Part shown: piece by piece, positions 28,949 to 33,201 of the stretch
How the letters are laid out: the number at the start of each line of letters is the position of its first letter
How positions within the stretch are numbered: the first letter of the stretch is position 1
Source of the DNA: an uncultured Victivallis sp.
GTDB lineage: Bacteria; Verrucomicrobiota; Lentisphaeria; Victivallales; Victivallaceae
Assembly: GCF_944391105.1 (NCBI RefSeq)
Contig: NZ_CALXSK010000006.1
Span: 1-64,000 of the forward strand
Direction of reading: 5' to 3'
Length of the DNA stretch: 64,000 bases
The notes under the pieces: generated by a model
Databases searched by the model: none
Seen by the model: only the letters and a program-made list of their open reading frames with translations
Told to the model about the DNA's origin: nothing
Made by a program: the position numbers and the translations under genes

Positions 28949-30226
28949 ATGTTTCATACCAGGAATATCGTGACCGCGATCGAAATCGGCACGTCGAAAA
29001 TGAATGTGCTGGTCGGCGAGGCGGGGACGGATGGTCGCGTGAGCGTGATCGGCCGCGGATCCGCCCCTTCCGCCGGATCGGTCGTCAAGGGTGAAATCGA
29101 GGACATGGAGCTTGCTTTCGAGCAGCTTGGCGCGGCGATCGCAGATGCGGAAAGTTCCTCGGAGGGGATGTTGAACAGCACGAGGATCGTGGTTGTGGCC
29201 GTGACCGGATGCCGCATAGAAGCGTTTCAGGGAATCGGTTCCGTCGTGGTGAAAAACGAAGAACACAAGGTCACGAGCAAGGAGCGTCTTGAGGCGCACG
29301 AAAATGCGCGGGTGCTGCAGCTTGCGACCGGGCGCGAGATCATCAACAGCTCCGAGTCGTACTTCACCATCGATGAGCGGCGGATCCGGAATCCGTTGAA
29401 TCACACCGCGAGCAAACTTGATGCCTATGTGCATGTTGTACATGCCGATGCGGCCCGTCTGGAGAATTTCCGATCGATCGTGCGCGATTCCGGATTTGAA
29501 GAGGCCACGATCGAAGTTGCGTTTTCTCCGCTGGCCGATGACTTCGGCATTCTTTCCGAAGAGGAGCGCGAACACGGGGTGCTGCTGGTGGATTTCGGCG
29601 CCGGAACGACGGAGTTCGTCGTGGAATACAACTCCGGTGTCCAGGCTTCCGGCGTGCTTCAGGTGGGGTTCGATCACGTCTGCAACGATTTGTCGCTGGG
29701 GCTGGATCTTCACATCGACGTCTGTCGCAAGATGATCGAGGACAAGTCGTTGCAGAAGGCGATGCGCGAGCGCCGTGAATACATGGAGTTCCCGAGTTCA
29801 ACCGGTCGTGTCCGCCGGATTCCGCTCTCTTCCTTCGAGGCGATTGTCGATGCCCGCATCCGTGAGACGTTTGAGATCATCCGCGCCATGGCTTCGGCGC
29901 AGGGGGCGCCTGCCGTTCTGGATGCGGGAGGAGTTCTGACAGGAGGAGGTGCGTTGTTCGAGCGAACTGCTCCACTGTTCGGTGAGGTGTTCGACATGTC
30001 CTGCCGGATCGGGCAGCCGTTCGAGGCGGGAGGTGCTCTGACGGGGCTTGACACTCCCCGTTGCAGCACGATCTGGGGAGCATTGAAGATTGCCGGATAT
30101 TATAACGAGTTGAACGGCGGTCAGAGTGCTCGCGGCATGGTCGGGAGTCTGATCGACGCGGTTGATGGAGTTTTGAACCGGACGCGTCTCGGGTGGCTGA
30201 ATTTCCGGGATGCGTGGAAGGGGTGA
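28949..30226 (+). CDS. ftsA: cell division protein FtsA
   Basis: 425-residue actin-fold protein that ties the FtsZ ring to the membrane. Nucleotide-binding landmarks are AIEIGTSKMNVLVGE (about 10; usual form DIGTTK), LLVDFGAGTTEFVVE (about 210) and LTGGGALFE (about 331). The C-terminus ends LGWLNFRDAWKG, an amphipathic helix like the usual membrane-targeting tail. It is the first gene of a three-gene unit with a divergent ftsZ and an unknown membrane protein, three bases apart or overlapping. Confidence 0.88.
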   Translation: MFHTRNIVTAIEIGTSKMNVLVGEAGTDGRVSVIGRGSAPSAGSVVKGEIEDMELAFEQLGAAIADAESSSEGMLNSTRIVVVAVTGCRIEAFQGIGSVVVKNEEHKVTSKERLEAHENARVLQLATGREIINSSESYFTIDERRIRNPLNHTASKLDAYVHVVHADAARLENFRSIVRDSGFEEATIEVAFSPLADDFGILSEEEREHGVLLVDFGAGTTEFVVEYNSGVQASGVLQVGFDHVCNDLSLGLDLHIDVCRKMIEDKSLQKAMRERREYMEFPSSTGRVRRIPLSSFEAIVDARIRETFEIIRAMASAQGAPAVLDAGGVLTGGGALFERTAPLFGEVFDMSCRIGQPFEAGGALTGLDTPRCSTIWGALKIAGYYNELNGGQSARGMVGSLIDAVDGVLNRTRLGWLNFRDAWKG

Positions 30227-30229
30227 CCG

Positions 30230-31432
30230 ATGATGGACGAGAGGAAGATCACCGTTCTGGGAATCGGCGGAAGCGGGTGCCGGATCGTCGGAATTCTGAA
30301 GAATAATCCGCTCGCGTCACCGCTCCACCTGGTGGCGATTGACAGCGATGCAGCGGGGCTTGAATCCTCGGGGCTCGATGAGAATTTCCGGCTGCTGGCC
30401 GGAGAGCGCTGGCGGAACGGGCGTGGCTGCGGCGGCAGCGTCATCGACGGGCAGCGGGTGGTTGCACACGAACGCAGCCGCATTGAAAAGTTGCTTGACG
30501 GGGCTTCGTTTCTGCTCGTGGTCGGCGGTCTCGGACGGGGAACCGCCTCCGGTGGCATGTCGGTTGTGCTTTCCGTGGCACGGAAGCTGGAGATTCCGAC
30601 GCTGTTTGTCGTGACGCTGCCGTTTACACTTGAGGGGCACAGTCGCCGCAAGATTGCCGAAGATACGGTGAAAAATGAGCTGCTTGGGCTCGCGGATGCT
30701 GTGATTTGTCTTCCGAATGATCTGTTGTTTTCGGTTCTTGAGCCGACTACGCCGTTGTCGAATGCGTTCAAGCTGGCGGATCAGGAGCTGTCCCGCACGG
30801 TGCTGGCGTTGACGATGGTGCTGCTGCATGGGAACCTGCTCGCCGCTGATTTCGGGAGTTTCATCACGCTTTTGAAGAAGAAGAAAAGTTTCTGCAGCAT
30901 CGGCGTCGGAGTCGCCTCGGATGAGATGGAGCCTGAGAAACGCGGCGAGGCCGCCATGGAGCGGTTGCTGCAATCTCCTTTGCTCGGAGGGGCGGACAAG
31001 CTCGGGGATGCGGATGCGGTGATCTTCACTCTGCTCGGCGGGCCGGAGTTGTCGCTCGGGGAGAGCCGGCATATTTTGGAACTCGCTGCGCGCCAGGTGA
31101 AACCGGATACGCAACTGATTGTAGGTGCAGCCACTGGCGAGGAGTGGGCGAATCAGATTCAGCTCTCGGCCGTCACGGTCAAATTCGATGCCGAGAGTGA
31201 AGCCGCAGAGCTTTTACGCAGCAGTTCCGCGCCGCATCCGCGTCGAACCCGTGCCGGTTTTGCCGGGGCGCATGGCGTGGACGGAGATCAGCTGACGTTG
31301 CCGTTGGAACCGGTTTCCAAGGGCATCATGGAACGTGGTCCGCAGGTGAAGTGGGGGAATGAGGAGCTTGATGTGCCGACTTTCAAGCGGCGCAACATCA
31401 CGGTGGACAACGGCAAAACGGGAGTGGAGTAA
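30230..31432 (+). CDS. ftsZ: divergent FtsZ
   Basis: 400 residues. It is recognisable as FtsZ by position after ftsA, by GIGGSGCRIV at about 12, by LLVVGGLGRGTASGG at about 99, by VVTLPFTLEG and LPNDLL, and by the C-terminal peptide DVPTFKRRN. That tail resembles the usual DIPAFLRK, which binds FtsA/ZipA. Differences are marked: the tubulin signature GGGTGTG is GRGTASG, and the T7 synergy loop, normally NxDFAD, reads AADFGS, losing the Asn and the second Asp used for GTP hydrolysis. It probably still forms the division ring, perhaps with slow GTPase. Whether another FtsZ exists is not visible. Confidence 0.82.
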   Translation: MMDERKITVLGIGGSGCRIVGILKNNPLASPLHLVAIDSDAAGLESSGLDENFRLLAGERWRNGRGCGGSVIDGQRVVAHERSRIEKLLDGASFLLVVGGLGRGTASGGMSVVLSVARKLEIPTLFVVTLPFTLEGHSRRKIAEDTVKNELLGLADAVICLPNDLLFSVLEPTTPLSNAFKLADQELSRTVLALTMVLLHGNLLAADFGSFITLLKKKKSFCSIGVGVASDEMEPEKRGEAAMERLLQSPLLGGADKLGDADAVIFTLLGGPELSLGESRHILELAARQVKPDTQLIVGAATGEEWANQIQLSAVTVKFDAESEAAELLRSSSAPHPRRTRAGFAGAHGVDGDQLTLPLEPVSKGIMERGPQVKWGNEELDVPTFKRRNITVDNGKTGVE

Positions 31433-33201
31433 TGGAGGAGCTTAAGGCTGTGCTGGCCCGGGCCAATCTGGGGCAGGTCGCTTTGTTGACGATTCCCTGG
31501 ACTTTGCTTCAAGTCGGTGGATTCTGGGCGCTTGCCGATGCACGGGCCGGGATTGCCGGAGTGATCGGGATCGGCATTGCCGCCGTTGCCTCGTTTCTGA
31601 TTCTCGCTTTTGTTTATCACCGAAACCAAATCAAACTTGCGAATCTCATTCTGCTTCGGAGCGGCGGAATCGAGTCTGAGTTTTATGGCTTCTTTTCTCT
31701 GTTCCGGTTCTGGAGCGCCCGGCTGGAATTGGTTCGCAGTCGGATTCCCGGGTATGTCAACGCGTTGAGAGTGAACTATATCGCTTTGCCGCTGGCTTTT
31801 CTCGCCGCGATACTGGAGTTCTGGGGCGGCGCGTTGTTTCTGACGCTGGTCTGGTGTGTTACCGGGATTCTGGTCCGTTCAGCCGTCGTTCGCGCGGTGA
31901 CGGGGGAGAGTACAGCTGTATCCGGCAGGGTCAGGTGGGGGATCGTTCTGCTGTTTGTCGTCTCCGCAGTCGGCTGGGCTTATGTCCGGTACGAGGCGGC
32001 TTCTGCGGAAGAGATTTACCGGGAAAAGGTTGCGCAGCTTCAGAAAGAGTCCTTTTTATTGACCGGGGCGGAGTTGGCCGCGCATTATGAGCTGAAGGGG
32101 GAGAATGGTGCGGATGCCGTGAGGGCGTTGACGCATTTCCCGGAAATCCCGGATTCTCTGAGGCGCCTGGCTGCGCCGGTGTGGGTGACGGACGTTTCGC
32201 CCGATGCCTATGGCGAGCTTGAAAAATTCGTGTTTGAAAACCGTGCGTTTCTGGATCAGCTTGCGAAGATCGCCCGGAATCGGTCCGCCCGTCTCGGTTT
32301 TGAGTTTGAGAAGGGGATCGATGGAAGGGGAGGGGAGGAGTTGTCGGCACGTTACCGGATGCTGGAAGAGATGGAACGGCTCGGTTTCTATTCTTACGCG
32401 GCGGTCGGCAACAGCCGGAGAGTGGAGGAAAGCTGGAATGTACTGGGGGCTCTCCGCCGTCAGTTGAGCGGAGAGCCGCTGCTGGCGGGAAGTGCCGTCG
32501 TCATGGAGATGGAATCCAGGCGTCTCGACGCGCTTGAGCGGTTGCTGAATGAATTCGGAATCCATTCGAAGAAAGAGGCGGATTTTTTTGCCGGCGATCT
32601 TGCCGTATCGGAGAAGGAACTTGCGGAGAATCTCCGGTTTGCCTTGAAAGGGGAAGTTGCACTGCATCGGATTTCGGGACAGAACCCGTTCCCAGGGTGG
32701 AAATTGCAAGGGCGCGGCAGCCGTTCTCTTGCCCGGGTTTTTCCCGCGCTCGACTGGATTCGGAGCGGCAGCAGTGCGGTTTATCTGGAGGGGATGAGCC
32801 GATTCGAATCCGCGGTAGGAGAGCCGGAGAAGTATGCCGGGATCCGGTCGAGCCTCGCCGGTCTGCCGGTCGGACTGACTCCCGGCGTCTCTGCACTGCA
32901 TGCCGCGGATGCGGTTGTCGCGCGTTATCGGGGATTGGTTCGGAGGATGCGTGCGGGAGGCGTCGCTCTCTGGCTGGATCGTTATCGTCAGGCGCACGGA
33001 GCATTCCCTGATACGCTGGCCGAGCTGAAGAAGGAGTTTCCTGATGCCGTCTGCACGGATCCTCTGTCGGGTGAAACGCTGAAATACGAAAAAAAGAAGT
33101 TTTCCGTCGAAGCAACGGAGCCTGCTTCGGGGGTGACGCGGCAGCGTTGGACGGATGGTGCCGTGATCGGAGGAGACGCGGGTTTCCGGATCATTCGGTG
33201 A
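31432..33201 (+). CDS. unknown membrane protein downstream of ftsZ
   Basis: 589 residues, no family recognised. About five hydrophobic segments lie in residues 13 to 190; the rest is a large soluble, mostly helical domain, presumably extracytoplasmic. The last 60 residues (AHGAFPDTLAEL, CTDPLSGETLKYEKK) resemble the C-terminal part of GspG-like pseudopilins and of periplasmic proteins sharing that module. The start shares one base with the ftsZ stop (TAATG), so translation is coupled. This suggests a division-linked membrane protein, but the link is by position only. A weaker alternative is envelope transport. Confidence 0.6.
   Translation: MEELKAVLARANLGQVALLTIPWTLLQVGGFWALADARAGIAGVIGIGIAAVASFLILAFVYHRNQIKLANLILLRSGGIESEFYGFFSLFRFWSARLELVRSRIPGYVNALRVNYIALPLAFLAAILEFWGGALFLTLVWCVTGILVRSAVVRAVTGESTAVSGRVRWGIVLLFVVSAVGWAYVRYEAASAEEIYREKVAQLQKESFLLTGAELAAHYELKGENGADAVRALTHFPEIPDSLRRLAAPVWVTDVSPDAYGELEKFVFENRAFLDQLAKIARNRSARLGFEFEKGIDGRGGEELSARYRMLEEMERLGFYSYAAVGNSRRVEESWNVLGALRRQLSGEPLLAGSAVVMEMESRRLDALERLLNEFGIHSKKEADFFAGDLAVSEKELAENLRFALKGEVALHRISGQNPFPGWKLQGRGSRSLARVFPALDWIRSGSSAVYLEGMSRFESAVGEPEKYAGIRSSLAGLPVGLTPGVSALHAADAVVARYRGLVRRMRAGGVALWLDRYRQAHGAFPDTLAELKKEFPDAVCTDPLSGETLKYEKKKFSVEATEPASGVTRQRWTDGAVIGGDAGFRIIR

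Follow-up and report, generated by a model that had tools for sequence, protein, structure and literature searches.

An FtsZ with a single T7-loop aspartate in an uncultured Victivallis species, and the distribution of such loops across Verrucomicrobiota

The stretch of DNA analyzed here, referred to as the window (64,000 nucleotides, positions 1 to 64,000 of contig NZ_CALXSK010000006.1, assembly GCF_944391105.1), comes from an uncultured Victivallis sp. in the class Lentisphaeria of the phylum Verrucomicrobiota. Its forward strand contains ftsZ (30230..31432, 400 amino acids), the sole tubulin-superfamily gene found in this genome, which encodes the filament protein that organizes bacterial cell division. 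Directly upstream on the same strand lies ftsA (28949..30226, 425 amino acids; 205.8 bits against the NCBIfam ftsA equivalog, cut-off 175.85), which ends 3 bases before the ftsZ start, so the ftsA-ftsZ synteny noted when the sequence was first read is retained. Downstream, the ATG of a 589-amino acid open reading frame of unassigned function (31432..33201, forward strand) overlaps the ftsZ stop codon (TAATG), so this gene is probably part of the same operon. The 589-amino acid product had no match in Pfam or NCBIfam, its N-terminal region is hydrophobic, and there were 6 matching open reading frames among the loci fetched up to that point.

The 400-amino acid product is FtsZ by descent, as judged by its domains, C-terminal tail, ftsA synteny and fold. 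It matches the Pfam Tubulin/FtsZ GTPase domain (PF00091, 69 bits, curated cut-off 33) and the FtsZ_C domain (PF12327, 39.8 bits, cut-off 27), the solved structures closest to it, with B. subtilis 2vam (E 1.6e-35) among them, are without exception FtsZ, and its closest named relative is from an uncultured Victivallis sp. (88% identity). An AlphaFold2 model (mean pLDDT 87.4) is predicted to adopt the FtsZ fold, since every top Foldseek match was an FtsZ, with TM by target reaching 0.86; as a monomer model, it is no basis for judging hydrolysis at the subunit interface. The score against the NCBIfam TIGR00065 equivalog, 164.5 bits, falls below that family's annotation threshold of 295.2 bits, which reflects divergence of this FtsZ rather than a different descent. 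The conserved C-terminal peptide EELDVPTFKRRNI (31361..31399, forward strand), in which D381, P383 and R387 are invariant across a 61-sequence alignment of the class, is predicted to be the FtsA-binding tail, in agreement with the sequence-only reading that this tail is kept.

Catalysis by FtsZ is described as requiring both aspartates and the asparagine of the T7 (synergy) loop. In the window's protein this loop reads AADFGS (30842..30859, forward strand), and the alignment of NLLAADFGSF with GLMNVDFADV of E. coli FtsZ bears out the earlier claim that the asparagine and the second aspartate are missing: N207 is replaced by A and D212 by S (E. coli numbering), D209 is kept, and the canonical N-x-D-x-x-D pattern is absent. 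The same holds for the claim of an altered GTP-binding signature, since GLGRGTASG (30527..30553, forward strand) aligns with GMGGGTGTG of E. coli FtsZ and carries the changes G106R, G109A and T110S, which depart from the canonical pattern [SAG]GGTG[SAT]G. On the same strand, the T2 loop AIDSDA (30335..30352) has D in place of E. coli N43 and keeps D45, the Mg-site acid, and the T5/H5 stretch LEGHSRR (30629..30649) keeps E138 and R142; N165 and D166 are also retained. Sampled in the window and in six congeners, the T7 loop is AADFGS, AADFGS, AADFGN, AADFGN, AADFNN, AADFSD and APEFGS, so the reading is inherited and not a sequencing error.

The equivalent residues have been studied in S. aureus and E. 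coli. In S. aureus FtsZ, D210 (the equivalent of D209) swings to bring the attacking water into position. Water, Mg2+ contacts and K+ are held by the counterparts of D212 and N207, and R143, which corresponds to R142 of the window's protein, acts in an arginine-finger-like manner; changing N208 to L, D210 to N or D213 to N each stops assembly in vitro (PMC8936486). The E. coli D212A protein has 7% GTPase activity (PMC8142252), D212G (ftsZ2) forms static rings (PMC7320174), and the G109S allele is temperature-sensitive and has low GTPase activity (PMC8953583). Like the window's protein, the E. coli D212A and D212G proteins have lost D212 and kept D209; they differ from it in having N207 and the signature intact, with GTPase at ~1-10% (PMC7320174, PMC8142252), and in being laboratory mutants, whereas the change in the window is natural and under selection. 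By analogy with these alleles, slow turnover, one of the outcomes raised by the sequence-only reading, would be the likeliest consequence.

To place this loop in context, 200 FtsZ sequences were aligned, comprising 111 class members, 88 sequences from elsewhere in the phylum, and that of E. coli. The full N207/D209/D212 triad is present in 11 of the 88 sequences outside the class and in 1 of the 111 within it, and N207 is lost in 41/88 and ~97/111, respectively. Exactly one T7 acid remains in 65 of the 88 sampled outside the class, plus four that read NxD. Which aspartate is kept varies: a large group in the phylum reads GLINLDFATL, with D209 kept and D212 lost, and in families f22 and f35 the loops are GLVRLGLDDL and GIVRMGLADL, with N207 and D209 lost and D212 kept. 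Because its genomes have several high-scoring tubulin matches, f35 is probably Verrucomicrobiaceae, the family of V. spinosum. The ftsZ gene of V. spinosum is essential (PMC12283558), and Verrucomicrobiota FtsZ proteins have been counted among the most divergent (PMC9871819). Judged from these alignments, FtsZ throughout Verrucomicrobiota tends to retain one T7 aspartate, at either position. The reduced loop is therefore no defect peculiar to this species, and an exceptional status for the window's FtsZ is not supported. The change in the signature is narrower than that in T7: most sequences outside the class keep the signature, with A109 in 4/88 (59/111 in the class) and R106 in 1/88 (13/111 in the class). 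Each of the 110 readable class sequences has D43 in the T2 loop, and position A70 is mostly C in the class-wide alignment.

Loss of the two aspartates is not independent. Of the 88 sequences outside the class, 20 lack D209, 51 lack D212 and 1 lacks both, where ~11.6 double losses are expected under independence (Fisher p 3e-8, kinship ignored); among class genomes without the second tubulin described below, both are lost in 2/76 (L153 and L167). On a tree built from the other alignment columns of FtsZ itself, with many genomes incomplete, a Pagel test preferred the dependent model (LR 21.9, 4 d.f., p 2e-4), also when the class was left out (LR 18.5, p 1e-3), over ~19 and 22 changes. The rate at which D209 is lost was ~0.45 where D212 is present but fell to 0.02 where D212 is absent. 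When independent loss was simulated for the combined set, unconditioned on the observed frequencies, 0 of 500 runs gave as few double losses. This dependence indicates that proteins such as the window's FtsZ still have need of hydrolysis, or at any rate of an acid at this place. On this comparative evidence D209 and D212 substitute for each other in evolution, and a missing D212 is not decisive alone. Within the genus, ftsZ is under strong purifying constraint like that on ftsA, with dN/dS of 0.07-0.12 for ftsZ and 0.06-0.09 for ftsA, some pairs being near saturation at silent sites. D212 is kept in 2/31 class sequences with the second tubulin and in 37/75 without, which ties its loss to that tubulin in a simple count; this is no independent evidence because the genomes without the second tubulin are mostly from one order.

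The second tubulin, which is found in other genomes of the class, is a protein of ~367 amino acids with the invariant signature GGGTGNG and the T7 loop H-I-D-x-E-D-F, in which both aspartates are invariant in 32 sequences. It occurs in 58 of 139 class genomes (a 59th match, in G016, is that genome's FtsZ), in cassettes at loci L184-L195 and L087-L122 (for example, L189:8340-10011). Two cassettes lie in genomes of the phylum outside the class (G081:C1:1429886-1430980, locus L187, and G248:C21, locus L192), possibly by transfer. The best Foldseek match of its model was B. cereus TubZ (4ei7, TM 0.66-0.70), with FtsZ structures scoring nearly equally. Directly upstream in 56 genomes is a gene of ~110 amino acids with weak, below-cut-off winged-helix matches and no TubR match found, and upstream of this gene are (ACTNN)n arrays of 5-bp period, up to 11 units long, which are putatively centromere-like. 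The motif was chosen from two loci, with the remaining loci serving as an independent test, and arrays were found at 35/39 loci at P<=0.04; exact five-unit arrays occur at 13 of 278 fetched loci, all with a TubZ-like cassette, and none is present in the window.

This organization resembles the tubC-tubR-tubZ layout of plasmid partition systems (PMC7762940): the tubulin fold matches B. cereus TubZ (4ei7) best, and the gene order corresponds, with repeats, a small gene that may be of the DNA-binding type and the TubZ-like gene. TubZRC is plasmid-borne, whereas the cassette sits on chromosome-sized contigs across a bacterial class. The possibility that the second tubulin belongs to phages, plasmids or viruses was considered and set aside, as no sequence match was found in plasmid, phage or viral collections; given that plasmid or phage carriage was not seen, the protein is called TubZ-like and is not classed as TubZ.

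Sister lineages with this TubZ-like tubulin are mainly where the one-acid rule breaks, with 9 of 31 readable FtsZ sequences from such class genomes lacking both acids. Some genomes of these lineages encode a half-FtsZ of 234-264 amino acids, often as the gene behind ftsA in family f10. Its match to the model covers positions 40-237 and 377-433 but skips the part in the middle; the GTP-binding N-terminal domain and the tail NGENLDLPTYWR are kept, and the T7 loop and C-terminal domain are gone. Of 23 genomes searched with a profile of this protein, 10 had matches at E<1e-80, and examples behind ftsA are at L199:2774-3535, L200:4040-4771, L201:2942-3643, L203:2056-2844, L204:4161-4928, L205:4190-4930, L206:212-1003 and L207:2633-3367. 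Three near-complete genomes that belong to one genus (G192, G209 and G315; loci L196, L197 and L198) keep ftsA and the TubZ-like cassette. Neither PF00091 nor the half-FtsZ profile revealed an FtsZ in them, the one profile match in G315 (E 9e-4) being unconvincing, and none was seen when the region behind ftsA was inspected. An FtsZ has been reported for Lentisphaera (PMC5147048); this is perhaps the TubZ-like protein.

Several readings of the window's FtsZ can be weighed against these data. The sequence-only reading proposed to search for a second ftsZ, whose discovery would have refuted it, and suggested that division may depend on another filament protein. The window's genome (completeness 94.9%) has one PF00091 match and one MreB match over cut-off; no second canonical FtsZ, Tubulin_2 (FtsZ-like) protein, TubZ-like tubulin or ~110-amino acid partner gene was found in it, so no tubulin-family candidate for such a filament emerged. 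The TubZ-like gene is absent from the window's whole family and cannot explain division here. A canonical FtsZ could sit in the unassembled 5%, making the window's protein a specialized paralog, but this is scarcely credible, since the window's gene occupies the normal ftsA-ftsZ place and three congeners of 99% completeness each have exactly one FtsZ, the same one. It is also very doubtful that ftsZ is decaying on a course that would end, as in other lineages of the class, with a half-FtsZ or with no FtsZ at all: its dN/dS matches that of ftsA, its full length, both domains and tail are kept throughout the family, and no other tubulin is present to replace it. Compensation for the lost T7 residues by the D43 acid across the subunit interface, a candidate raised because D43 and N207 loss coincide in uncorrected counts from outside the class (Fisher p 0.004), was rejected when the association disappeared with kinship allowed for (LR 1.9, p 0.75), and is thus improbable as well.

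A more serious rival is that this FtsZ is GTPase-dead, with static, FtsA-bound filaments that scaffold the divisome while septal wall synthesis drives constriction. The loss of N207 and D212 together with G106R and G109A, the static rings of E. coli D212G (PMC7320174) and the S. aureus single mutants in these loops that fail to assemble (PMC8936486) all point this way, and it is because each S. aureus T7 change stopped assembly that the proposal must be taken seriously. However, D209, R142 and D45 are kept in the window's protein, and selection clearly preserves one T7 acid or more in lineages without the TubZ-like tubulin, when a pure scaffold would need none; on balance we regard a dead enzyme as unlikely, if well worth bearing in mind.

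We therefore favor, with moderate confidence, the reading that the window encodes the true and only FtsZ of this organism, an FtsA-tethered filament GTPase that works slowly with D209 as its single T7 acid. It builds on the observed sequence, synteny, single copy, purifying selection and dependent loss of the aspartates, the last of which is best explained by a working, slower one-aspartate GTPase. The protein would bind GTP and polymerize head to tail, D209 alone would serve as the T7 acid, slow hydrolysis would yield longer-lived filaments, and the intact tail would bind FtsA; with D209 and the arginine kept, and D212 mutants elsewhere slow or static, such long-lived filaments on FtsA are what might be expected. 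The enzyme is thus probably slow rather than dead. Counter-points are that G109 is changed too, and that L153 and L167 lack both aspartates and have no second tubulin; one aspartate without the asparagine might not suffice, given the assembly-dead S. aureus mutants and the static E. coli D212G rings. Relative to the canonical FtsZ of E. coli, B. subtilis and S. aureus, the GTPase domain, FtsZ_C, tail, ftsA neighbor and predicted fold are the same, whereas two T7 acids and an asparagine are reduced to one acid and the signature reads GRGTASG. Relative to other Verrucomicrobiota, the reduced T7 loop is shared and so, as the Lentisphaerae alignment called for by the sequence-only reading makes clear (full triad in 1/111), it is not specific to the window.

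A broader proposal, which we consider speculative and rather improbable, is that division in Lentisphaeria is drifting away from FtsZ, from a T7 loop with one acid, to half-FtsZ, to loss, and that the TubZ-like system may replace it. Truncation and loss of FtsZ being seen only where the TubZ-like system is present would fit such a course, in which that system may have assumed the part of moving filament played by FtsZ or coupled chromosome segregation with division. The family to which the window belongs would then have lost the TubZ-like system and been left with a one-aspartate FtsZ alone. In this phylum one or the other aspartate persists in FtsZ, and it is uncommon for both or for neither to be present, which amounts to a natural experiment on the minimal needs of treadmilling. 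Planctomycetes and Chlamydiae are related groups that divide without FtsZ, so the Lentisphaeria genomes with half-FtsZ, and those that lack FtsZ and keep ftsA, bear on the origin of FtsZ-less division in these bacteria.
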